From NCBI GenBank assembly GCA_002831545.1, contig CP025095.1:310001-374000 (forward strand): 64,000 bases of DNA. The letters are read 5' to 3'. How positions within the stretch are numbered: the stretch's first letter is position 1; each line of letters starts with the position of its first letter. Source of the stretch: Streptococcus suis. Its GTDB lineage: Bacteria > Bacillota > Bacilli > Lactobacillales > Streptococcaceae. The notes under the pieces are model-generated. The model searched no databases. It worked only from the letters and a program-made list of their open reading frames with translations, and was not told the origin of the DNA. Positions 33,867 to 55,015 of this stretch are shown here, one piece after another. The position numbers and the translations under genes are program-made.

Positions 33867-35266
33867 CGGTAAAAAATGTAGCATTAACTTATTCAGGAGC
33901 AGATAAACCAGCCTTGCAGATAGAGGATCTGACCATTCCAGAAGGCCAGTGTGTTGTTTTATGTGGGGAGAGTGGCTCTGGGAAGTCTAGTTTTCTCAAG
34001 GTGTTAAATGGTTTGACGCCAGAATATTATCCTGCTCAGCTTTCGGGACAAATTTTCTTAGGGGACTTGGATTTACAAAAATCTAGTCTGGAAGAAATAT
34101 CTCGGCACATTGCTTCAGTCTTTCAGCATCCGTCTACTCAATTTTTTCATAGTCAGGTCTTGCAGGAATTGGTCTTCCCTTGTGAAAATCAGGGTTTGTC
34201 AAGAGAAGAAATCGAGAATCGCCTGGCTTGGGTTATGGAATTATTTGGTTTGGCTTCTCTTAGTCAGCGAACGATTTCCAGTCTATCAGGTGGTCAGCAA
34301 CAACGTCTAGCCTTGGCCGTTGCAGCTATGCAAGGGACAGATGTCTTGGTTTTAGATGAGCCGACTGCCAACCTAGATCAGGAAGGGATTGTGATTGTAG
34401 AGGACATCTTGAAAACTTTAAAAAGCCAAGGCAAGACCATTATTATTGCCGAGCATAGACTGTCTTATCTCAGTCAATTGGCAGATCGCTATTTATATTT
34501 TCAAGATGGGCAAGTGGTGACGGATTATCTAGCAGATGAGTTTTTAAGTCGGACAGAAGAGTGCCGTCAGGATATGGGCTTGCGTTGCTATGATTCGGCA
34601 CCTTATGGACGAGCAATAGCAGAGCGAGCCAGTCAGTTTGTCAGTGATGAGCAAGGTTTGCTTGTTGAGAATTTGTCTGTCAGCCAGTCAGGAAACCTTC
34701 TATACCAGATTGAAAAACTCTGCTTGGCACCAGGTCAGGTGGTTGGTCTGGTTGGTCCTAATGGCTCTGGCAAGACGAGTTTGGCTCAATTTTTGGTTGG
34801 TCTGGCAGATGATAAGAAGGCTAGGATTTCTTGGCAGGGGCAGTCCTTGACCAGTCGCCAACGCCTTGAAAAAACAGCCTTTGTCATGCAGGAGGTCCGT
34901 CTGCAACTCTTTTCTGAAACAGTTGCTAGGGAACTAACCTTGGGTCAAAAAGATGAGAAAATTGATGAGGATTTGGTCAGCCGTTTTCGCTTGGAGGACT
35001 TGCTGGATAGGCACCCAGTCAGTTTGTCGGGTGGTGAGCAGCAACGCTTGATGATGGTGGCTAGCTTATTGGCGGACAAGGAGATTCTTGTCTTTGATGA
35101 GCCAACTAGCGGTTTGGATTTAAGACAGATGCAGGAAGTAGGCAGGGCTCTTCTTGAAGTAAAAAAGAAAAATAAATTAGTGCTATTGATTTCCCATGAC
35201 GAAGAACTCTTGGAGCTGGTTTGTGATAAAATAGTGGATATCAAACAGTTGAGATGGGGAGTATGA
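33830..35266 (+). CDS. ECF transporter duplicated ATPase (fused EcfA-type)
   Basis: The 478-residue protein holds two ABC ATPase domains. Domain 1 has GESGSGKSS, LSGGQQQRLALA and VLVLDEPTANLD. Domain 2, from about residue 275, has GPNGSGKTS, LSGGEQQRLMMV and ILVFDEPTSGLD. One polypeptide therefore replaces the EcfA1/A2 pair. I chose ATG 33830 because GGAG lies nine bases upstream; the longer open frame begins at a TTG inside ecfT. Confidence 0.9.
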   Translation: MLSRFSDSRPAVTVKNVALTYSGADKPALQIEDLTIPEGQCVVLCGESGSGKSSFLKVLNGLTPEYYPAQLSGQIFLGDLDLQKSSLEEISRHIASVFQHPSTQFFHSQVLQELVFPCENQGLSREEIENRLAWVMELFGLASLSQRTISSLSGGQQQRLALAVAAMQGTDVLVLDEPTANLDQEGIVIVEDILKTLKSQGKTIIIAEHRLSYLSQLADRYLYFQDGQVVTDYLADEFLSRTEECRQDMGLRCYDSAPYGRAIAERASQFVSDEQGLLVENLSVSQSGNLLYQIEKLCLAPGQVVGLVGPNGSGKTSLAQFLVGLADDKKARISWQGQSLTSRQRLEKTAFVMQEVRLQLFSETVARELTLGQKDEKIDEDLVSRFRLEDLLDRHPVSLSGGEQQRLMMVASLLADKEILVFDEPTSGLDLRQMQEVGRALLEVKKKNKLVLLISHDEELLELVCDKIVDIKQLRWGV

Positions 35267-36540
35267 ACAAACAGAGGAAAGAAATACTAAGGATTGCTTT
35301 GCCTGCCATGGCAGAAAATATTCTTCAAATGCTGATGGGGATGGTGGATTCCTATCTGGTAGCTAGTCTTGGGCTTGTTGCCCTTTCAGGAGTGTCTTTA
35401 GCTAATAATATCTTGGCGGTTTATCAGGCACTATTTATTGCTCTAGCGGCAGCTATTTCTGCACGCTTGGCTCAAATGCTGGGACAGGGTAAGACTGAGA
35501 AGGTGAGCTATCTTGCTAGTGAAGGTCTTAAAGTGACCCTATTTGTCAGCTTGGTTTTAGGGGTGGTTGCAGTTTTGGCAGGTCCGTCCTTGCTGATAGG
35601 TTTGGGAGCTGAAGTTGCTGTTGCCAAGGCAGGTGGTCTTTATCTCATCTTGGTTGGTGGAGACATTCTCTTTCTCGGTCTGATGATGAGTTTTGGGGCT
35701 ATGTTAAGGGCTTTAGGTCAGCCTCGTTTTCCTATGTATATCAGTCTGCTTTCCAATCTCCTCAACGCTCTCTTTTCGGCTTTTGCTGTTTTCGTGCTTC
35801 ATGCTGGCGTGGCTGGAGTTGCACTTGGAACAGTCTTATCACGGCTGGTAGGTTGTTTTCTGCTGTGGGCAAAGCTGTCTATCCCTTTTGAAAAATGGAC
35901 ATGGTCTTGGGATGTAGAACTCATTCGTCTTGCTTTACCAGCTACTGGGGAACGCCTGATGATGCGGGCTGGAGATGTGGTGGTTGTTGCCTTGATAACT
36001 AGCCTTGGAACAGCAGTTGTAGCAGGCAATGCTATTGGAGAAACGCTAACCCAGTTTAACTATATGCCAGCCATGAGCATTGCTACAGCAACCATTATTT
36101 TGACGGCTCAACATCGACAGGATCAGTTAGCGGTTCAAAGGATTTTTAAAACGAGTTTGCACCTATCACTCATATTTATGCTTTTGATGGCGGCAACGAC
36201 TTATTTTGCAGGTCCGTTTTTGACCAGTCTGTATTCAAGAGAGCCTCAAGTAGTTCAAGCCAGTCAGACAGTCCTACTCTATTCTATGCTCGGAGTTCCT
36301 GTTACAGCAGCTACCCTTATTTTAACTGCCTTGTGGCAGGGCTTGGGCAATGCCAAGCTACCCTTCTATGCAACTAGTTTAGGGATGTGGCTGGTCCGCA
36401 TAGGTCTTGCTTATTTGCTTGTAGGTATCTTTCAGTTGGGGTTGCAGGCCATTTGGATAGCAACCATAGTAGACAATGCCTTTCGTGCAGGACTTTTGTA
36501 TGTTCAATATAAGAGGGTAGGAAAAGTTAAAACGGATTAA
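35263..36540 (+). CDS. MATE-family efflux transporter
   Basis: The 425-residue protein has about 12 membrane segments in two related halves, with the MATE pattern MLMGMVDSYLVASLGLVALSGVSLANN near the N-terminus. It exports organic cations or other small molecules using a sodium or proton gradient. It overlaps the ATPase gene by four bases (ATGA), which is why I prefer this start to the ATG nine bases earlier. Being last in an uptake operon, it may export a metal-binding compound or protect the cell from it. Confidence 0.88.
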   Translation: MNKQRKEILRIALPAMAENILQMLMGMVDSYLVASLGLVALSGVSLANNILAVYQALFIALAAAISARLAQMLGQGKTEKVSYLASEGLKVTLFVSLVLGVVAVLAGPSLLIGLGAEVAVAKAGGLYLILVGGDILFLGLMMSFGAMLRALGQPRFPMYISLLSNLLNALFSAFAVFVLHAGVAGVALGTVLSRLVGCFLLWAKLSIPFEKWTWSWDVELIRLALPATGERLMMRAGDVVVVALITSLGTAVVAGNAIGETLTQFNYMPAMSIATATIILTAQHRQDQLAVQRIFKTSLHLSLIFMLLMAATTYFAGPFLTSLYSREPQVVQASQTVLLYSMLGVPVTAATLILTALWQGLGNAKLPFYATSLGMWLVRIGLAYLLVGIFQLGLQAIWIATIVDNAFRAGLLYVQYKRVGKVKTD

Positions 36541-36557: not shown

Positions 36558-36590
36558 TTTCAGTTTCGTTTAAGTTTGTAGATATATACT
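36558..36590 (+). promoter_or_regulatory. CiaR-type promoter, copy 1
   Basis: TTTCAG-N5-TTTAAG (36558-36574), then exactly ten bases, then TATACT (36585-36590). This is the arrangement of CiaR-activated promoters (TTTAAG-N5-TTTAAG ten bases from the -10). Confidence 0.82.
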
Positions 36591-36596
36591 ATCATC

Positions 36597-36668
36597 AAGC
36601 TAGAAATAGCGAAATTCTTTTTCATATAATCTCCTAGAAGACAGTCGACTGCGGTCGGCTGTTTTCGT
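36597..36668 (+). ncRNA. CiaR-dependent small RNA (csRNA), copy 1
   Basis: The predicted start is seven bases after the -10. The RNA carries the segment TTCATATAATCTCCT (36621-36635), complementary to a Shine-Dalgarno plus AUG region. It ends in the hairpin ACAG.CGAC/GTCG.CTGT followed by TTTT. Two close relatives lie at 45634 and 45809. Size, promoter and anti-SD loop match streptococcal csRNAs, which repress translation by pairing with ribosome-binding sites. Confidence 0.8.
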
Positions 36669-36669
36669 G

Positions 36670-37196
36670 TTTCTATGTGTTTTGAAAATTTTATCCATTT
36701 ACCTGGAAATTTATGGTCGTTTAGACAATACCTTTGGTTATAGTTGTTTGAATTAGGAAAAGTCTAGCATCAAGTTATAGTGTCAGTAGCCCACTCTCAA
36801 AATAACTCTAAAATTTTCAAATTTATAAATGCAAACACGTCCTGTTTTAAATTCAATTCGTTATAATTCAATGCAAGAAAAGCTGGGCAAGACATCTATG
36901 ATAGCTCCGCCATTCTCTATTTCTAGCTCAACCTAGCTTTCGCATTTTTATGCTCGGGCTGAAACATTTCAATGAACGGTTTAACTCCACTGGATTATTT
37001 AACCTAGTTGTGCTGTACTTTGTAGAAGTGACTGGTAGCTCGTTGCCTTTTACTAAAAGTAAACTGATATTCAATGAAAATCTATAATTACCGGAGTTTA
37101 TACCTGTTTACACCAACTGAAATAATAATGTTAATGAAAACACAAAAAGCGTTTCTCCCCATTCTCTCCATTTTGGTCTCAATTTTATACTATTTG
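36670..37196. other. Long intergenic region before the adhesin
   Basis: No gene is supported. A hairpin-like pair, AAAGCTGGG (about 36880) with CCTAGCTTT (about 36936), is visible. A piece near 37073 (ATTCAATGAAAATC) resembles the end of the short repeat family at 1168/58448 in reverse. The rest looks degenerate. Confidence 0.4.
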
Positions 37197-37250
37197 TTGA
37201 ATAATTTGTCAAATGTTGATATAATGACATTGGATAATATATATATATAT
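37197..37250 (+). promoter_or_regulatory. Adhesin promoter and (AT)7 tract
   Basis: TTGAAT (37197-37202), 17 bases, TATAAT (37220-37225). Seven AT units (37237-37250) lie in the early leader. The ribosome site AAGGAG (37296-37301) lies five bases before the ATG at 37307. Confidence 0.6.
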
Positions 37251-37306
37251 GCTTGATTGCGTATGTTTTATATATAGAGCAAGTTTTCTTTATATAAGGA
37301 GTGTAT

Positions 37307-40300
37307 ATGAATCGTCAGCGATTTAGCAAGAACTTTGATGAAATTGACCGTAAGAGTCAAGTGAAGATGTACAAAGCTGGTAAAAACTGGGTTCGGAAAG
37401 TAATATCTCAGATTAGTCTTTTACGAGTAATTCGTAGCCGTGATGATGTAACCGCTAACATAAGCACTGTTGAAAATAGGGATTGTTTGGATAATCGATG
37501 TCATGAATACTTGAAGTCTATTTTAGCTTTGGGGGCGGCAATTACAGGTACTTCTGTTTCACCGACTGCTTTTGCAGAAGAGTATCCTCTTGTTGTGGAG
37601 CAAGAAGTAGAAAGTAGTATTGATACTCTTGTTGATAAAGATGTAGTAATTGTTGAAAGAGTTTCTTCAGAAATAATTGTTGATAGTCACCTACTGATTT
37701 CAACAGATCCATCTCCATCATCAAATGTCAACCAATCCATTGATCGCATGGTTTCAGCTAGTGGCAGTGAATCTGTTAGTGCTTCCTCCTCGGCTAGTGG
37801 CAGTGAATCTGTTAGTGCTTCCTCCTCGGCTAGTGGCAGTGAGTCTGTTAGTGCTTCCTCCTCGGTTAGTGGCAGTGAGTCTGCTAGTGTTTCCTCCTCG
37901 GTTAGTAGCAGTGAGTCTGTTAGTGCTTCCTCCTCGGTTAGTAGCAGTGAGTCTGTTAGTGCTTCCTCCTCAGTTAGTGGCAGTGAGTCTGTTAGTGCGT
38001 CAGAGTTGGTGAGTACATCGGTTAGAGAATCATTGTCAACAAGCGAAAGTGAACCGCTGAACGCGAATGGAACTGTGAATAAATCAGAAACCATTCGTAT
38101 CGCAGCAGAGTTGGAATACACCACACTGGACAATGCCATCCGCAACTTAAGGCACGCCCTATCTTTCCCAGAAATTTTTGAAGAAACAGGGAATGAAGAA
38201 AAGTATGGAAAGTATCGACAAGCCTTATCTCTTGCTAGACTTGCTTTAGAACAGGCCATCGCCCTTAGGGAAAAAGACTCGGTCAGTCAGGTAGAGTTAG
38301 ACGCTATGGCCTTAAAAGCGGGTCAAGCTGCGATAAGTTTAAATGGTCGAATAGCCCAAATCAATCCGATTACGGCTGTAGAGGGGACAAGTACTCGAGC
38401 AACGGATACTGTAAGACCGGAGATTCTTAAAACAAATGACCTAATAATCTTCAATAAAAGGACGATTACAACTCCATTAGTTTTTGGAGAGGTTAGAGAA
38501 GCAAGCAATCCTTCTTCATGGAAAGATTTTGGTATTAACTATGCATCCAATACCTATACAGCTGATAGTATAAAGGGAGGAAATAACATTCTTTTGGACT
38601 TCCCTGGTTTACAAGTAAGACATAGTTTGAAAACGGGGACGAGAGATGTATATCAGATAACAATATCTGGAACTGCTACCTATAAACAGGAAGTAAATGG
38701 AAGAACATATTTTACTCGTGCTCCGTATATCGTGGATGGCGCTGGGAATATACCGCTCTTTTATGTCAATGGAGCATGGAAGGAATCTAAAATCATCATT
38801 GTTGAAGTGGAAGATGGGAACCATTACATCAATATGAATTGGGGAGAGGCAGTAACCTCTAATAAACTGACTGAGAAAGCTAGCCTGCATACTAAAGCTG
38901 GGAACCCTTGGACTGATAAAAACGTATTGAACAATATTGTGATTCGTCCAACGGGTCAACTTCCAGCAGTGAATGAATCCAAAAACGTTGCTGTTGACCT
39001 TTCTGTAAACGGTCAATCGAATACAGCAACCGCAAATATTTATGTTAATTATCCTCCTCAAATAACAACTGCAAGCAATATGTATGTATTTAAGGGGGAG
39101 AGCGTAAATAGACAACTTATTCAGATAACAGAGAGTGGACCAGCGAATTTTGGAGGAACTGTAAAAAGTGCTACCTTTAATACATATGTACAAGGGTTAA
39201 CTATATCGACAACTGGTTTGGTGCAGGGGACGGTTCATGCAAATGCAACTCTTGGAAGATATACACGTACTGTTTCAGCTACAGACAACCTAAACAACAC
39301 TAATACATCAAATTCATTCGGAATCTATTATATGGATTTAACTGGCGGAGAGTTAACGTCTGAAATTGGTACAAAAATTACAAACGATCAAATTAGAAAT
39401 TTACTCCTTGCTAATTTACAATCTGGTGGAGAAAGTGTATCAAGCAACGTAAGCTTTAGTATACCTGAGCATGAAATGAGTTTAGGAATACAAACAATAA
39501 ATGTTGTAGCAACAGGTACAAACGGGAACTCGAAGACCGTTCAAGTGAAGTTGAATTACCGAGACACCCAAGCACCTACCGTTACAAGAACCCAGTCCGT
39601 TATTTACGTATTTGATAATGTACCAATTAAACTATTGAATCCGAACAATCCTCAAGCGGTTTCTCCAGTTGCCGATAAATTAAAAATTGCAACGGTTACG
39701 GATGTGTCTGGAGTGGCCACGACTGCGGACATACTCACCGCTGTAGAAGCTGAAAATGACAACAAAAAAGGTTTGACCGTTACAGTTGAAGGAAGTACGG
39801 CTAGTCCAAAAGAAGTCTTTGTCTCGGGTCAAACCGCAGCCTCTTTCAATCTGCCATCTGGATTTTACAACAATTTCGTTAAAATTGCAGATACCCAAGG
39901 TAATGCGACTACCTATCAAACAGAAAGTGCCAAATTTAAAATGCACTTGCTGGATACGAGTGTCACGCCTATTGTCGCACGAGATATTGATGCGACAGGT
40001 TTCACACGTGTGACGGCAGAAGATATACTCAATGCAGTCAATGTAGACTATGGTGCTGTCACTCAAGATGAGCAAAATGCAGTCAAAGTTCGCAAGGAGC
40101 TTCTGTCAAATTCAGATACAGGAGACAGGGTAACTCTTGGTACAAAAAGGGCTACAGTGCGTGTCTACACAGCTAGCAACACCTATAAAGATGTTGATGT
40201 TACGTTCGACTATGTAGATAGAACTAGACCACGTATCACCGTCAAGAAAGATGTTTCTGTCTTTGCTAATCGACCTGTTGAATTGATCGAGCCAAACACA

Positions 40301-40463
40301 GCAGCTCCCGTAATCGCAACCGATAGCTCAATGCCGTTGACCTATAGTATGCCAGATGCATCAGGAGTGACGGTCAATTCTACTACAGGTAAAGTGCAAG
40401 GAACGCTTAGTGCTACTGGTGCTGGATACTATACACGTGCGGTTACAGTGCTGGATGCTCATA
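37307..40463 (+). pseudogene. Serine-rich-repeat adhesin, 5' part (interrupted by IS)
   Basis: It encodes about 1,052 residues before the insertion. The N-terminal VKMYKAGKNWVRK fits the KxYKxGKxW signal of accessory-Sec (SecA2/SecY2) substrates; a hydrophobic core ends at SPTAFAEE (about residue 85). A short serine-rich region 1 (SASGSESV repeats, about residues 145-235) follows. The ligand-binding region and several immunoglobulin/cadherin-like repeats with DxTxP-type motifs (DTQAPTVT, DRTRPRIT) come next. The frame runs into the IS and stops at 40531. Its partner half is at 41564-45299. Confidence 0.88.
37752..38000 (+). repeat. Serine-rich repeat region 1
   Basis: About eight tandem 30-base units encode variants of SGSESVSASS. 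SRR1 regions of such adhesins are normally O-glycosylated in the cytoplasm before export. Confidence 0.85.
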
Positions 40464-40489
40464 CTCAACAAAAATCAAAAGCAAACCAG

Positions 40490-40987
40490 TCAAGTGTTTT
40501 TAAACCATTGTCTACTAACAATTGGTTTTAAAATAGACCAATCTAACTCTCGTATTACTTCTTGAAGCTTGTTTATCACATCGTCTAGTGTTTTAAAAGC
40601 TTTATTCTTAAACCCTCTCTTTCGAATCTCAGCCCAAACTTGTTCAATTGGATTCATTTCAGGAGTATAGGGAGGAATAAACTCAAAACCAATATTATGT
40701 GGTTTCTCTAAGGTACTTGATTTATGCCAAACGGCATTGTCCATCACTAATAAAATATAATCGTCAGGATAAGCTTCAGATAGTTGTTTGAGAAAAACAT
40801 TCATCCAATCTGTATTACAGCCCCCAGCGATAATGAAGAAGGACTCTCCTGTATGGGCATCAACAGCACCATAGCAATAGCGATACTCACGAATATAGTG
40901 ACTATGTACATGCGGTCTCACCCCTTTTGGTGCCCAGGCCTTCCCAATTTTACTGATCCGACCGAAACCCGCCTCATCTTGATACAT
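40490..40987 (-). CDS. IS630-family transposase, C-terminal ORF (orfB)
   Basis: This frame holds the DDE catalytic domain: the first Asp in MYQDEAGFGR, the second in LVMDNAVWHKS and the Glu in MNPIEQVW. The frame is open upstream of its ATG into the end of orfA (KRFKNSRRYHKVRL), so the active transposase is probably made by frameshifting from orfA rather than by starting here. Confidence 0.88.
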   Translation of the reverse strand: MYQDEAGFGRISKIGKAWAPKGVRPHVHSHYIREYRYCYGAVDAHTGESFFIIAGGCNTDWMNVFLKQLSEAYPDDYILLVMDNAVWHKSSTLEKPHNIGFEFIPPYTPEMNPIEQVWAEIRKRGFKNKAFKTLDDVINKLQEVIRELDWSILKPIVSRQWFKNT

Positions 40988-41012
40988 TAGCCTGACTTTA
41001 TGATAGCGACGA

Positions 41013-41525
41013 CTATTCTTGAAGCGCTTTCCTGTTTTCGTGAATGAAGATTTTATTTTTAGACGCTAGAATCGTTTCGGCGTCTGCTTTTTTAGGGTGT
41101 TCTGGTCTTGGCGTCACTTTGCGCCAACCATGGCGTTTAAGAATGGCATAGAATCCTTCCTTGGTCGTAGGGTGTCCAACCCGTTTCTGATAAGCTTCAT
41201 AGAGAGAGTTTATCGTCACAAATTCGCCATTTAGTGAGGCTGTTAACTGTTCTTTTAGAAACGCTTCCTCTTCTTGAAGGGTTAAATATTGACGGTTCCG
41301 TCCACCTCGCGTTTCTCTTACTAGAGCTGAAATCCCCTCAAGTTCGTACTTGCGCTGTAAGGACCAGATTGTATACTTTGAATAGCCGATGAGGTTAGTG
41401 ATTTCCTTATAGCTAAGACCTTCTGCTCTGAACAAGATAACTTGAAGTCGTCTATGAAATGGAGAATAGGTTTTATCTTTCAAATAAGTTTTTAATTCTT
41501 TCGTTTGTTCGATAGTAAGTTTCAT
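41013..41525 (-). CDS. IS630-family transposase, N-terminal ORF (orfA)
   Basis: A 170-residue protein with two helix-turn-helix parts (LSYKEITNLIGYSKYTIWSLQRKY and the LYEAYQKRVGHPTTKEGFYAILKRHGW winged helix) that bind the element ends. It ends at a TAG shortly after FIHENRKALQE. The catalytic part continues in the +1 frame. Confidence 0.88.
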   Translation of the reverse strand: MKLTIEQTKELKTYLKDKTYSPFHRRLQVILFRAEGLSYKEITNLIGYSKYTIWSLQRKYELEGISALVRETRGGRNRQYLTLQEEEAFLKEQLTASLNGEFVTINSLYEAYQKRVGHPTTKEGFYAILKRHGWRKVTPRPEHPKKADAETILASKNKIFIHENRKALQE

Positions 41526-41563
41526 AAATCTATTATAGGTTAGTTTTTGTTTTTTGAATAGTA

Positions 41564-44500
41564 TCAAAACAATAGCATAACATCAGGTGATTTTTGGATT
41601 CGATCCCTGTTTATCAATAATATGGGGAGCGATGGGACTATTACAGCCCTTGAGCGTGAGTATGGATTGGTTCCGACAGCAGATGATATTAAAAACCATG
41701 TCACAATAACGGGTGTAGATAACAATGGTCCAACGATTACCAAAGAAGTATTAGGAACTATTCCGAAAAATGTTAATGGACATGTACAAGTCCAGTTAAC
41801 AACGAGCGAAGGGGTTCGTACTGTTGTGACTGTACCAATCAATTACACCAACCAACGTCCGATTATTAACGTGCCAGCTAGAAAAGAAATCCTTCGAAAA
41901 CCAGTGGGGCAATCGACCACCATTGACTTGTCCGAAGGTGTGACTGTTACAGATAGAGAAGATGATCGTTCTCCATCAGATAACCTGACGACATCTGTCA
42001 AATATGAGATTGTAGATAGTACCAATCAAGTAGTGAGAACGGTTGGGCCTAGTACAGCATCAAAAATAGTTGACCTTACAGATCTTCCTGCAGGGGATTA
42101 TACAGTTAAGATTTCTGCGACAGATTCTGGAGCAACAACACCTGTCGTTGCAACCTATTCCCTTCGTGTAAATGTGGATACAACACCGCCAACGGTTGCG
42201 AATGCGAAGTCAGACATTTTTGTTTTCAAAGGAGTAGCAATTGACACAAATGCAACTGTAACAGGGGAACAACCATTGAAATGGGCGACTATTTCGGATG
42301 ATATTGCTGTGACAGACATTGTTGGAAGAAACAATTTAGTTGGTCTCTCGTTGGACTTGAACGGCAATTTAACAGGAATAAGTAATAGTACTGCAGGTTA
42401 CTACAGTAGAAGTTTGACTGTTACGGATGGTACAAACAGTGCAACTGCTGTATCAGTCAGAATCTTTGTCCTTGAGCCAAGTGGGGAAACAACGACACGG
42501 ATTCATGGGCACCATGTGCGTACAACGGATTTTGCCAATCTTGTGACATTGACATCTGGTTCTGGGTATGATAGCAATGGGTTCAAAGCAGCTGCTGGCT
42601 TGACATTTACACCAGTAGATGCACAAGGAAATGCTCTAACAGATAATCAATTACCAAAAACAGGGACAGGAAATCAAGTTCGTGTACGAGTGACGACAAG
42701 TCAGGGGGTTGTGACCTATGTAACGGTAACTGTTAATTATGATGCAAACACAAATCCAAGTCTAACGGTGAGCGATCAGACGATAGACAAGGGAGATGTG
42801 AGAGGAAATTCTATCGATTTATCAAGAGAAGTTACGGTTTCTGATAAAGAAGATGATCGTGATCCGAATGATAACAAAACCAAACGTGTTACTTATGAAG
42901 TTCGTTCTGCAGATGGGGCGAGGGTTATTAAGGCGGAAAGCGAGGATGTGACACTTCCGCTTACAACTACGGCCGGAACCTACAAAGTCATTGTCAAAGT
43001 TACGGACAGTGATGGTAGCGTTGTGACAAGAGAGTACACATTGACTATCACAGATCGTGTGTCTGCGAGTATCTCCTCCTCTGAGTCCGCGTCAACCAGC
43101 GCGTCTACCTCATCAAGTACCTCAACGAGTGCGTCCGCATCAGTCAGCGCGTCCACCTCATCAAGTACCTCAACGAGTGAGTCTGCGTCAACCAGCGCGT
43201 CTACCTCATCAAGTACTTCATCGTCTGAGTCCGCGTCAGTAAGCGCATCTACTTCAGCAAGTACTTCATCGTCTGAGTCCGCGTCAGTAAGCGCGTCTAC
43301 TTCAGCAAGTACCTCAACGAGTGAGTCTGCGTCAACCAGCGCGTCTACCTCAGCAAGTACCTCGTCCTCTGAGTCCGCATCAGTAAGCGCGTCTACCTCA
43401 GCAAGTACCTCGTCCTCTGAGTCCGCATCAGTAAGCGCGTCTACCTCAGCAAGTACTTCATCGTCTGAGTCCGCGTCAGTAAGCGCGTCTACCTCAGCAA
43501 GTACCTCAACGAGTGAGTCCGCGTCAATGAGTGCGTCTACCTCAGCAAGCACGAGTGCCAGCGCGTCCGCATCAACCAGTGCGTCTACCTCAGCAAGTAC
43601 AAGTGCTAGCGCGTCCGCGTCGACCAGTGCGTCTACCTCAGCAAGCACGAGTGCCAGTGAGTCCGCGTCGACCAGTGCGTCTACTTCAGCAAGCACCAGT
43701 GCCAGCGTGTCCGCGTCGACCAGTGCGTCTACCTCAGCAAGCACATCAGCTTCTGAGTCTGCATCAACCAGTGCGTCTACTTCAGCAAGTACCAGTGCTA
43801 GCGCGTCCGCCTCAACAAGTGCGTCTACCTCAGCAAGCACCAGTGCTAGCGCGTCCGCGTCGACCAGCGCGTCTACCTCAGCAAGTACCAGTGCTAGCGA
43901 GTCCGCGTCGACCAGTGCATCTACTTCAGCAAGCACAAGTGCTAGCGCGTCTGCCTCAACAAGTGCGTCTACTTCAGCAAGCACGAGTGCCAGCGCGTCC
44001 GCATCAACCAGTGCGTCTACTTCAGCAAGTACCTCGGCTTCTGAGTCTGCGTCAACCAGCGCGTCTACCTCAGCAAGTACCAGTGCTAGCGAGTCCGCGT
44101 CGACCAGTGCATCTACCTCAGCAAGCACCAGTGCTAGCGCGTCTGCCTCAACAAGTGCGTCTACTTCAGCAAGCACGAGTGCCAGCGCGTCCGCATCAAC
44201 CAGTGCGTCTACTTCAGCAAGTACCTCGGCTTCTGAGTCTGCATCAACCAGCGCATCTACTTCGGCAAGTACCTCAACGAGTGAGTCTGCGTCGACCAGT
44301 GCGTCTACCTCAGCAAGTACAAGTGCCAGTGAGTCTGCGTCAACCAGCGCGTCTACTTCAGCAAGCACCAGTGCCAGTGAGTCTGCGTCGACCAGTGCGT
44401 CTACTTCAGCAAGCACATCAGCTTCCGAGTCTGCATCAACAAGTGCGTCTACCTCAGCAAGTACAAGTGCCAGCGAGTCCGCGTCAACCAGCGCGTCTAC

Positions 44501-45299
44501 CTCAGCAAGTACTTCATCGTCTGAGTCCGCGTCAACCAGCGCGTCTACCTCATCAAGTACCTCAACGAGTGAGTCTGCGTCGACCAGCGCGTCTACTTCA
44601 GCAAGTACCTCAACGAGTGAGTCTGCGTCAACCAGCGCGTCTACCTCAGCAAGTACCTCATCGTCTGAGTCTGCATCAACTAGCGCGTCTACTTCAGCAA
44701 GTACCTCGGCCTCAGAGTCCGCATCAGTAAGCGCGTCTACTTCAGCAAGTACTTCATCGTCTGAGTCTGCGTCAACCAGCGCGTCTACCTCATCAAGTAC
44801 CTCAGCTTCTGAGTCTGCGTCGACCAGCGCGTCCATCTCAGCAAGTACTTCGGCTTCTGAGTTTGCGTCAACTAGCGCGTCTACCTCAGCAAGTACCTCA
44901 TCATCTGCGTCCGCATCAGAAGTTTGGATTACATCAAATGCTGGTGGAGCTTCCTTGGAATTACCGAAAATTGATGTACAATCTGTATCGGAATCTATAA
45001 GTGTTTCTCAATCAGTTTCGATCAGTTCATCTGCATCAGTGAGCACATCGACTTCAGCCAGTGCGTCCGCATCCGTGAGTGCATCAACTAGCGCATCTGT
45101 TTCAGCAAGTGCTTCAAGGTCTGAATCAATGATTCCGAACCAGCCAAGTTCAGAAACTGTAAGTCCAAAACCTGCAAGATTGCCGAATACAGGAGAAACA
45201 GCTTCAAATATATCTGGAGCAGTCAGTGCAACTCTGTTGCTAGGAGCCTTTACTCTTAAAGCTAAACGACGTCGTAAAAAAGACGAAGAAACTGAATAG
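41564..45299 (+). pseudogene. Serine-rich-repeat adhesin, 3' part
   Basis: The frame is open from the IS border ([15 protein letters not shown]...) through three more cadherin-like repeats. A serine-rich region 2 of roughly 680 residues (SASTSASTS and variants) follows, then LPNTGETAS, a hydrophobic segment and [13 protein letters not shown] for sortase anchoring. No ribosome site lies upstream, so it is probably not made as a surface protein. Removing the 1,100 bases of IS plus one TA leaves the two halves in different frames, so a further small change has occurred at the junction. Confidence 0.87.
43057..45120 (+). repeat. Serine-rich repeat region 2
   Basis: About 2 kb of tandem units, mainly 18 to 60 bases long, encode [13 protein letters not shown]-type repeats. 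Units vary at synonymous positions, so the array is long-lived, but recombination could change its length. Long antisense and out-of-frame ORFs here are artefacts of the repeat. Confidence 0.93.
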
Positions 45300-45594: not shown

Positions 45595-45627
45595 TTTCAG
45601 TTTCGTTTAAGTTTGTAGCTATATACT
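45595..45627 (+). promoter_or_regulatory. CiaR-type promoter, copy 2
   Basis: TTTCAG-N5-TTTAAG (45595-45611), ten bases, TATACT (45622-45627), the same geometry as copies 1 and 3. Confidence 0.82.
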
Positions 45628-45633
45628 ATATTC

Positions 45634-45712
45634 AAGCTAGAAATAGCAAACAACTTTTCTTTTTCATATAATCTCCTAGAGAACAGTCGACCGCGGTCGG
45701 CTGTTTTCGTGT
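45634..45712 (+). ncRNA. CiaR-dependent small RNA (csRNA), copy 2
   Basis: The RNA body contains TTTTTCATATAATCTCCTAG and ends in ACAGTCGACCGCGGTCGGCTGT plus TTTT as terminator. It differs from copy 1 by a few bases and a short insertion before the anti-SD segment. It lies between the adhesin terminator and copy 3. Confidence 0.8.
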
Positions 45713-45769
45713 TTGGGTACAATTAGTAATTTCATAATCAAGAAAATATTTTCAGAAAAACTTTTTGAT

Positions 45770-45802
45770 TTTCAGTTTTGTTTAAGTTTGTAGATATATA
45801 CT
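45770..45802 (+). promoter_or_regulatory. CiaR-type promoter, copy 3
   Basis: TTTCAG-N5-TTTAAG (45770-45786), ten bases, TATACT (45797-45802). The shared upstream sequence ATTTTCAGAAAAACTT shows it is a tandem duplicate of copy 2. Confidence 0.82.
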
Positions 45803-45808
45803 GTATTC

Positions 45809-45880
45809 AAGCTAGAAATAGCGAATTTCTTTTTCATATAATCTCCAGAGAACAGTCGACTGTGGTCGGCTGTTTTCGTG
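45809..45880 (+). ncRNA. CiaR-dependent small RNA (csRNA), copy 3
   Basis: It contains TTTTCATATAATCTCC, but the following T of the anti-SD is missing (TCTCCAGAG). The terminator is ACAGTCGAC..GTCGGCTGT plus TTTT. The mvk promoter follows at once. Confidence 0.78.
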
Positions 45881-45904
45881 TCTTTTCTTCTCGGGCAAAA
45901 ATGG

Positions 45905-45936: not shown

Positions 45937-46872
45937 ATGTCGGTAGTAGGGAAATCAAGCGGTAAAATCATTTTGATGGGAGAACATTCAGTAGTCTATG
46001 GTCAGCCTGCTATTGCCATGCCATTTTCTGCTGTGGAAATTACAGCTCAGGTGACTGCCCAAGGTCAGGCACTTAGTGTAGCTTGTGACTTCTATGAAGG
46101 CCTGGTTCACAAGATGCCCAAAATATGGGAAAGTCTCAAGCATGCCATCCGTTTCTCACTCTATCGTATTGGTGCGCCGACTGACCCAGCTATTCACATC
46201 GAAATCAGCTCCACCATTCCTGCCGAGCGAGGCATGGGGTCTAGTGCTGCGGTGGCAGTAGCCGTTGCCCGCGCCCTCTTTGCCTACTACGAAAAAGACC
46301 TGACGGACGGCGAACTCTGGGACATTGTCCAGTCTTCGGAAAAAATTGCTCACGGTAATCCCTCGGGCATTGATGCGGCGACTACCAGTGGCAAGTCCCC
46401 CGTCTTCTTTATCAAGCACCAGCCCATCGAACCTTTTGAGCTGAAACTCCGTGCCCACTTGGTAGTGGCTGATACAGGCGTGACGGGAAATACCCTAGAA
46501 GCCATTTCAGATGTGGCTGATTTGTTGGAGAAAAAGCCAGAGGCTATCAAGCTAGTAGAAGAACTAGGAAACTTGACCCGACAGGCCAAGGAAGATTTAG
46601 CCACAGACCAGGCAGAGCTTCTAGGCAGCAGAATGAACCAAGCTCATGCCCTCCTGCAAAAATTAGGCGTGTCTGATCCTAGCCTAGATAAGCTAGTCCG
46701 CCTTGCCCAAGAAAATGGAGCCCTCGGAGCCAAATTAACTGGTGGCGGTCGTGGCGGTTGCATGATTGCTCTTGTTAGAACAGGCCAAGATGCTCAGACT
46801 CTTGCTCAAATTCTTACCCAAGCAGGCGCCCGCCAAACCTGGATACAGTACTTAGGAGAAACCAATGACTAA
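45937..46872 (+). CDS. mvk: Mevalonate kinase
   Basis: A 311-residue GHMP kinase that phosphorylates mevalonate at the expense of ATP. Motifs are KIILMGEHSVVYGQPA (motif 1), PAERGMGSSAAVAVAVARAL (the ATP-binding glycine-rich loop) and KLTGGGRGGCMIAL (motif 3). AAGGAG precedes ATG 45937; the longer frame has no ribosome site. It overlaps mvaD by eight bases and starts the four-gene operon that leads to isopentenyl diphosphate, the precursor of undecaprenyl phosphate. Confidence 0.94.
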   Translation: MSVVGKSSGKIILMGEHSVVYGQPAIAMPFSAVEITAQVTAQGQALSVACDFYEGLVHKMPKIWESLKHAIRFSLYRIGAPTDPAIHIEISSTIPAERGMGSSAAVAVAVARALFAYYEKDLTDGELWDIVQSSEKIAHGNPSGIDAATTSGKSPVFFIKHQPIEPFELKLRAHLVVADTGVTGNTLEAISDVADLLEKKPEAIKLVEELGNLTRQAKEDLATDQAELLGSRMNQAHALLQKLGVSDPSLDKLVRLAQENGALGAKLTGGGRGGCMIALVRTGQDAQTLAQILTQAGARQTWIQYLGETND

Positions 46873-53654: not shown

Positions 53655-53805
53655 AAGTATCCTTTCTGAACAAAAGAAAGGTTGGTAGCTTGTCGCCACC
53701 AACAAATAATAGAATTCGGTGACACTAGTGTATCACAGACTGGTAGAAATGGAAAGTTTGGAACTTATACTATTCAAAAAACAAAAACTAACCTATAATA
53801 GATTT

Positions 53806-54318
53806 ATGAAACTTACTATCGAACAAACGAAAGAATTAAAAACTTATTTGAAAGATAAAACCTATTCTCCATTTCATAGACGACTTCAAGTTATCTTGTT
53901 CAGAGCAGAAGGTCTTAGCTATAAGGAAATCACTAACCTCATCGGCTATTCAAAGTATACAATCTGGTCCTTACAGCGCAAGTACGAACTTGAGGGGATT
54001 TCAGCTCTAGTAAGAGAAACGCGAGGTGGACGGAACCGTCAATATTTAACCCTTCAAGAAGAGGAAGCGTTTCTAAAAGAACAGTTAACAGCCTCACTAA
54101 ATGGCGAATTTGTGACGATAAACTCTCTCTATGAAGCTTATCAGAAACGGGTTGGACACCCTACGACCAAGGAAGGATTCTATGCCATTCTTAAACGCCA
54201 TGGTTGGCGCAAAGTGACGCCAAGACCAGAACACCCTAAAAAAGCAGACGCCGAAACGATTCTAGCGTCTAAAAATAAAATCTTCATTCACGAAAACAGG
54301 AAAGCGCTTCAAGAATAG
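53806..54318 (+). CDS. IS630-family transposase, N-terminal ORF (orfA)
   Basis: A 170-residue DNA-binding half, same as in copy 1. It stops at TAG 54316-54318. The catalytic half continues in the +1 frame from a point shortly before the stop. Confidence 0.88.
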   Translation: MKLTIEQTKELKTYLKDKTYSPFHRRLQVILFRAEGLSYKEITNLIGYSKYTIWSLQRKYELEGISALVRETRGGRNRQYLTLQEEEAFLKEQLTASLNGEFVTINSLYEAYQKRVGHPTTKEGFYAILKRHGWRKVTPRPEHPKKADAETILASKNKIFIHENRKALQE

Positions 54319-54343
54319 TCGTCGCTATCATAAAGTCAGGCTA

Positions 54344-54841
54344 ATGTATCAAGATGAGGCGGGTTTCGGTCGGATCAGTAAAATTGGGAAGGCCTGGGCA
54401 CCAAAAGGGGTGAGACCGCATGTACATAGTCACTATATTCGTGAGTATCGCTATTGCTATGGTGCTGTTGATGCCCATACAGGAGAGTCCTTCTTCATTA
54501 TCGCTGGGGGCTGTAATACAGATTGGATGAATGTTTTTCTCAAACAACTATCTGAAGCTTATCCTGACGATTATATTTTATTAGTGATGGACAATGCCGT
54601 TTGGCATAAATCAAGTACCTTAGAGAAACCACATAATATTGGTTTTGAGTTTATTCCTCCCTATACTCCTGAAATGAATCCAATTGAACAAGTTTGGGCT
54701 GAGATTCGAAAGAGAGGGTTTAAGAATAAAGCTTTTAAAACACTAGACGATGTGATAAACAAGCTTCAAGAAGTAATACGAGAGTTAGATTGGTCTATTT
54801 TAAAACCAATTGTTAGTAGACAATGGTTTAAAAACACTTGA
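54344..54841 (+). CDS. IS630-family transposase, C-terminal ORF (orfB)
   Basis: The 165-residue catalytic half with the DDE motif (MYQDEAGF, VMDNAVWH, NPIEQVW). The frame is open upstream to a TAG near 54263, giving an overlap of about 50 bases with orfA in which frameshifting could occur. Confidence 0.88.
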   Translation: MYQDEAGFGRISKIGKAWAPKGVRPHVHSHYIREYRYCYGAVDAHTGESFFIIAGGCNTDWMNVFLKQLSEAYPDDYILLVMDNAVWHKSSTLEKPHNIGFEFIPPYTPEMNPIEQVWAEIRKRGFKNKAFKTLDDVINKLQEVIRELDWSILKPIVSRQWFKNT

Positions 54842-55015
54842 CTGGTTTGCTTTTGATTTTTGTTGAGTATTAAAAACTAGGTAATTCTAGCCGTGGCCGA
54901 ATAGAAGAAACAGTTGGAGTTGTAAACACGTACGATACAGGTAGAAATCAAAAGATTTTTACCTTTTTCTGTATATTTATGATAAAATAAATGAAAATTT
55001 AGAAGAGGTGTTCAG

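Follow-up and report, generated by a model that had tools for sequence, protein, structure and literature searches.

Three CiaR-type csRNA genes around a split serine-rich-repeat adhesin gene of Streptococcus suis: a probable cargo slot and a mostly generic complementarity at the adhesin start

The serine-rich-repeat (SRR) adhesin gene of the window, the whole stretch of 64,000 nucleotides that was analysed from a Streptococcus suis genome consisting of a single contig of 2.72 Mb, is split and flanked by three CiaR-type csRNA genes. It is placed between csRNA gene 1 and csRNA gene 2 (Table 1). The adjacency is probably that of a csRNA-bounded cargo slot, with the csRNAs as ordinary trans-acting RNAs and the adhesin start as one moderately good match among many. 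In the proposed mechanism, the gap between the MATE transporter and mevalonate kinase genes of S. suis-type streptococci would hold a short array of csRNA genes, almost identical to one another and thus homologous substrates for recombination. Cargo would enter or leave between the csRNA copies, an SRR adhesin in this genome and an ABC exporter with a regulator in S. suis 614. The csRNA genes and the adhesin would be neighbours because the array offers this homology, and the RNAs themselves would be ordinary CiaR-type csRNAs fitting many starts by anti-Shine-Dalgarno plus anti-AUG pairing. A sequence-only reading of the locus had placed csRNAs beside the adhesin, and three CiaR-type csRNA genes were confirmed at 36558, 45595 and 45770.

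Table 1. Features of the MATE–mevalonate kinase gap and its borders (window positions).
Feature	Position	Strand	Basis
MATE-family transporter gene, left border of the slot	35254..36540	+	ORF; Pfam MatE, E 5.8e-44
csRNA gene 1: CiaR box 36558-36574, TATACT ten bases on; RNA modelled 36596-36669	36558..36672	+	
Core of csRNA 1, TTCATATAATCTCCT; anti-Shine-Dalgarno plus anti-AUG	36621..36635	+	
Predicted adhesin promoter: TTGAAT and extended -10 TATAAT (37220-37225), 17 bases apart	37197..37225	+	Consensus scan; not evidence of function
Adhesin start region, AGGAGTGTATATGAA; 13/15 complementary to csRNA core; AUG 37307	37297..37311	+	
SRR adhesin gene, 5' part; frame runs into IS element	37307..40531	+	ORF; KxYKxGKxW signal
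IS630-family element inside the adhesin gene	~40461..41564	-	NCBIfam transpos_IS630; self-comparison; ends approximate
SRR adhesin gene, 3' part: serine-rich repeats and LPXTG anchor	41622..45299	+	ORF; profile searches
csRNA gene 2: RNA modelled 45633-45711; 89% identity with csRNA gene 1 across 120 bases	45595..45714	+	
csRNA gene 3: RNA modelled 45808-45880; 92% identity with csRNA gene 1 across 113 bases	45770..45881	+	
Mevalonate kinase-type gene, right border of the slot	45937..46872	+	ORF; relatives via tblastn

The traits of an SRR glycoprotein adhesin, a KxYKxGKxW signal (Pfam, E 1e-7; NCBIfam, E 2.6e-5), serine-rich repeats and an LPXTG anchor, were all detected, with the two gene pieces searched apart. 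The gene is not uninterrupted. An IS630-family element splits its frame, a feature absent from the sequence-only reading, and because of this interruption the strain probably makes no complete anchored adhesin. Self-comparison of the window revealed a second copy of the element at 53767-54870, with 1104 bases of perfect identity, and NCBIfam transpos_IS630 matched the ORFs of both copies. The product of the gene at the right border was recognised from its protein and is taken by us to be mevalonate kinase. Among named relatives, S. suis genomes came closest at the locus; in tblastn, their mevalonate kinase-type protein was 95-96% identical. A TA repeat stands at 37237-37251, in the leader predicted for the adhesin; it follows the promoter prediction and precedes the start codon. 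Its length could vary between strains.

The MATE gene stood beside the mevalonate kinase gene in 17 of the 25 named or MAG loci tested, and no ATG-started ORF of at least 60 aa lay between the two in 16 of these 17. The one filled locus, L080 of S. suis 614, comprises an ABC exporter-like gene and an RNPP-type regulator (L080:6274-10001). It is arranged like the window, as csRNA, cargo, csRNA and csRNA, and its flanks match the window up to 36692 and again from 45568. The gap held one to four csRNA cores at 11 of the 18 loci scanned (the 17 above and L086) and none at seven, where the mevalonate kinase was at most 82% identical to that of the window; three of these seven are titled S. suis. 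In L085 and L111, two csRNAs were present without cargo, and the left and right flanks of the window overlap inside one csRNA copy, as would be expected for cargo gain or loss by recombination between csRNA copies. Recombination is the route that we infer for the cargo. Four csRNA cores were arranged in tandem in L086:1-786, 218-219 bases apart and upstream of mevalonate kinase, on a contig that starts inside the array. This appears to be csRNA gene amplification. Among the loci compared, only one kind of cargo other than the adhesin was found, that of L080, and no strain was represented in both the empty and the filled state.

Denapaite et al. 2016 (PMC4863584) described islands that lie between duplicated csRNA genes in S. 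oralis and S. infantis, and csRNA genes as places where horizontally transferred DNA enters. As far as the available part of that report goes, its islands consist, like the window locus, of accessory genes that have csRNA copies at their borders and are missing from relatives, but they differ in species, locus and cargo, which comprises redox and transport genes. The window locus has the features of such an island, since csRNAs stand on both sides and the cargo is absent in relatives.

All three csRNA genes of the window carry TTTCAG-N5-TTTAAG, followed by ten bases and then TATACT. The box has one mismatch to TTTAAG-N5-TTTAAG and was classed as a CiaR box by the pattern NTTAAG-N5-TTTAAG before a -10 element. 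With up to three mismatches allowed, this promoter pattern matched only the three window csRNAs genome-wide. The flanking csRNA copies are direct repeats, 89-92% identical. Besides the copy listed in Table 1, the core was found exactly at 45663-45677 and with one mismatch at 45833-45847. The predicted folds showed the anatomy of csRNAs: a small 5' hairpin and a terminator hairpin, joined by an unpaired linker that contains the core TTCATATAATCTCC(T/A). In the linker of csRNA1, an additional weak hairpin was predicted. The genome has a fourth csRNA with a core at C1:68024, a longer body and a diverged box. With the gathering score of 57 applied, the Rfam csRNA family RF02379 did not match anywhere in the window; against csRNA1 it reached 28.2 bits (E 0.23). 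RF02379 is a model of csRNA1, and the gathering score is a curator's threshold and not a defining trait.

CiaR has been reported in S. suis 05ZYH33 (PMC3091779), and the boxes suggest that the window csRNAs depend on it. Three csRNAs were predicted in that strain, one of them at the ruvB locus (Marx et al. 2010, PMC3091779). In the available excerpt of that paper, these RNAs share with those of the window a CiaR-type box ten bases before the -10 element, two stem-loops and an unpaired linker of anti-Shine-Dalgarno and anti-AUG sequence. The excerpt mentions neither an adhesin nor the MATE–mevalonate kinase gap, and the csRNAs of the window are predicted from sequence.

The pairing claimed between the csRNA core and the adhesin start was borne out by sequence comparison, with 13 of 15 bases complementary and the Shine-Dalgarno and AUG blocks intact. 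Four matches to the core with at most two mismatches were found in the window, against a mean of 0.18 in 100 shuffles, and three of the four are the csRNAs themselves. A match at 13 or more of the 15 positions was rare, occurring in two of 313 sampled ATG starts, one of which was the adhesin, and this speaks against the generic reading. AGGAG at the spacing of the adhesin is typical of ribosome-binding sites, and the Met-Asn start dictates ATGAA; ten of the 15 positions are thereby matched in bases that serve other needs. The adhesin matches three of the five spacer bases; three or more were matched in 61 of the 313 sampled ATG starts, the adhesin included. When the csRNA1 linker was shuffled with CUCCU and CAU fixed, 77 of 400 shuffles scored equal or better, compared with one of 400 when the whole linker was shuffled. 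The complementarity between adhesin and csRNAs is real, and the constrained shuffles together with the ranks against real start sites identify it as mostly generic anti-start-site complementarity. The sequence-only reading had cautioned that generic Shine-Dalgarno complementarity could yield a weaker match by chance; the match at the adhesin consists mostly of the Shine-Dalgarno sequence plus ATGAA. In the predicted fold of the adhesin leader, the 15-base site is mostly paired, with a probability of being unpaired of 0.006 and an opening cost of 3.1 kcal/mol.

Start sites were ranked by the accessibility-corrected duplex energy of each csRNA with the start region. The sample comprised the window and 20 evenly spaced stretches of 20 kb (464 kb, about 17% of the genome), in which a simple caller that drops ORFs below 90 aa yielded 364 genes, 51 of them in the window. 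Such a ranking had been proposed in the sequence-only reading as a check on a dedicated role, and it counted against that role: the adhesin was 9th with csRNA1, 16th with csRNA2 and 17th with csRNA3. With the fourth csRNA it was 2nd. By duplex energy alone, it ranked 30th, 43rd and 35th with csRNA1, csRNA2 and csRNA3 and 6th with the fourth csRNA. The mean over the three flanking RNAs placed it 13th of 364 and first of the window's 51 genes, and the best score over the three placed it 19th and second, respectively. By energy, the adhesin start falls within roughly the best 2-5% of the genes sampled. Extrapolated to the whole genome, on the assumption of a representative sample, this would leave some tens up to about a hundred genes with better scores.

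Across the genome, 33 sites had at most two mismatches to the core. Judged by eye from the reading frames, they comprised four csRNAs, 13 implausible starts (internal or with no ATG in register) and 16 plausible starts including the adhesin. The 15 other plausible starts therefore match the core at 13 or more of 15 positions, and two of them, in a TM2-domain protein gene (L038) and the gene at C1:2710175 (L039), at 14 of 15. Eight of the 15 had a better energy with csRNA2 than the adhesin; ten were scored in full, whereas for the other five the accessibility cost of the csRNA itself was omitted, from the adhesin score used for comparison as well. The best of all sites scored, at about -20 kcal/mol, was the start of the lipoprotein gene L047 (C1:2236100-2237185, minus strand). 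Its start, AGGAGAACATATGAAAAAGAA, pairs with 19 of 21 csRNA linker bases and is unchanged in a 98% identical homologue of another genome (L191). As a candidate csRNA target, L047 stands above the adhesin. Lipoprotein, YSIRK-signal and transporter-like genes were among the high-scoring sites, some of the protein names being our own assignments by recognition. The start of L042, whose product is presumably BrnQ-like and was likewise named by recognition, matches the core at 13 of 15 but has average energies only (-9.5, -11.4 and -9.4). A dedicated target would be expected to pair clearly better than other starts, and the adhesin did not. The start of L006 (C1:678013), a gene for a YSIRK-signal, ZmpC-like surface protein, matches the core at 13 of 15.

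The sequence-only reading had proposed a dedicated circuit, in which CiaR-activated flanking csRNAs pair over the Shine-Dalgarno sequence and AUG of the adhesin and block its translation, so that the cassette carries its own regulator. We regard this as unlikely. The intact blocks within a complementarity of 13 of 15, the first or second place among the window's 51 genes and the best energy of 27 SRR starts with csRNA1 point towards it. Against it, the Shine-Dalgarno sequence and ATGAA explain the pairing, the cargo starts of L080 in the same slot pair weakly with the window's csRNAs, the adhesin start is predicted to be mostly paired in its own mRNA, and the adhesin gene is interrupted in this genome. 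That reading had itself named many equally good or better start sites as grounds for giving the circuit up, and the 15 others that are equal or better by count, eight of them better with csRNA2, amount to much of this. What stands of the claim that the neighbouring RNAs block adhesin translation is a start in the upper few per cent of genes that was the best SRR start with csRNA1; special support for a circuit of its own was not obtained. A highly doubtful extension is that the csRNA-bounded slot is a self-regulating cassette, in which surface-protein cargo is kept if its start happens to pair with the csRNAs. If true, envelope stress would shut down a newly acquired adhesin.

A broad csRNA regulon without dedication to this gene, which would modestly lower adhesin translation wherever the gene lies, has nearly an even chance of being right and is compatible with the cargo slot. 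The energy rank of the adhesin and the lipoprotein, YSIRK-signal and transporter-like genes at high-scoring sites agree with it. Among the listed csRNA targets of pneumococcus is brnQ, in keeping with the 13 of 15 matches of the BrnQ-like gene. Yet the effect is a prediction from sequence, the BrnQ-like start has only average energy, and secreted proteins often begin with MKK, so that their top ranking may be trivial. As pneumococcal csRNAs repress translation by pairing in the start region (PMC4507080) and the adhesin is placed in the top 2-5%, some repression of the adhesin by the csRNAs is plausible. Any effect of the csRNAs on adhesin translation, or the lack of one, is our inference, and csRNA control of the adhesin is possible, not specially supported. 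The rank among SRR starts, the first place of 51 in the window and the second of 364 with the fourth csRNA give a slight signal that the generic reading does not need. A chance neighbourhood, with the csRNAs unconnected to both control and arrival of the adhesin, would agree with the varied contexts of streptococcal csRNA genes, as far as the accessible text of PMC3091779 describes them. It is decidedly improbable in view of the flanks that overlap inside a csRNA in two empty-site relatives (L085 and L111) and of the other cargo between csRNAs in a third (L080). The csRNA-bounded cargo slot accounts for both.

Small RNAs that act on surface protein mRNAs or around start codons are known from related systems, here as given in the accessible parts of the reports. 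The multicopy sRNA LhrC of Listeria monocytogenes, under a two-component system, binds the adhesin mRNA lapB and impedes its translation (PMC4132741). It is a working parallel of the proposed circuit but differs in being experimentally shown, in belonging to an unrelated RNA family and in that gene adjacency plays no part (PMC4132741). In S. agalactiae, the CiaR-dependent sRNA Srn024 targets sap, which encodes an LPXTG wall-anchored protein, near the AUG, as tested with a translational fusion (PMC9603419). CiaR dependence and a wall-anchored target are shared with the proposed circuit, whereas the target is a pullulanase and not an SRR adhesin (PMC9603419). In S. pneumoniae, several csRNAs act additively on comC by pairing around the Shine-Dalgarno sequence and AUG, confirmed with mutants, and pairing strength was no predictor of the effect of single csRNAs (PMC4507080). 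The adhesin case would share this mode of pairing, which the mutants confirm for comC. None of the titles and abstracts among the matches listed described an SRR adhesin under csRNA control, which does not establish the absence of such a report from print. Since csRNAs, csRNA-bounded islands and sRNA control of an adhesin have already been described, the window locus belongs to known kinds. It adds the S. suis complex, with adhesin and exporter as cargo, to the cases in which csRNA copies bound accessory genes, and shows how broad csRNA anti-start-site complementarity makes a neighbouring gene look like a dedicated target. If regulation were also real, one locus would join acquisition and control of the adhesin.

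Comparison with other SRR adhesin genes gave a slight signal for the adhesin of the window. The adhesin and L199 matched the core at 13 of 15 among 28 SRR starts read, and the others at 5-12; in a wider set, of SRR starts less closely related, the matches likewise numbered 5-12 of 15. The signal peptide of L199 is 54% identical, and its stretch of 19.5 kb (L222) has no csRNA. For the energy comparison, 27 starts were scored, some rows being the same or nearly the same start and L198 being left out near its contig end; the csRNA-flanked adhesin, first with csRNA1, was third with csRNA2 and second with csRNA3. No csRNA was found around other SRR genes in 16 fetched stretches, of which the flank lengths differ and some end at contig ends. 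The SRR starts of L197, L198 and L051 lie within 0.7 kb of the contig start, so that any csRNA farther upstream would have escaped the scan. Three loose csRNA hits, one in L160 and two in L164, had two-mismatch boxes and no csRNA anatomy and were judged to be chance. A close adhesin orthologue for a co-variation test was not found in 147 relatives and 284 genus genomes; the nearest SRR signal peptides were 62-63% identical, with starts that match at 11 of 15. The genome of the window contains a second SRR adhesin gene (C1:897798-898073; L160, L212), whose fetched stretch of 19 kb has no csRNA; its open frame comprises 3254 codons and its start matches the core at 11 of 15.
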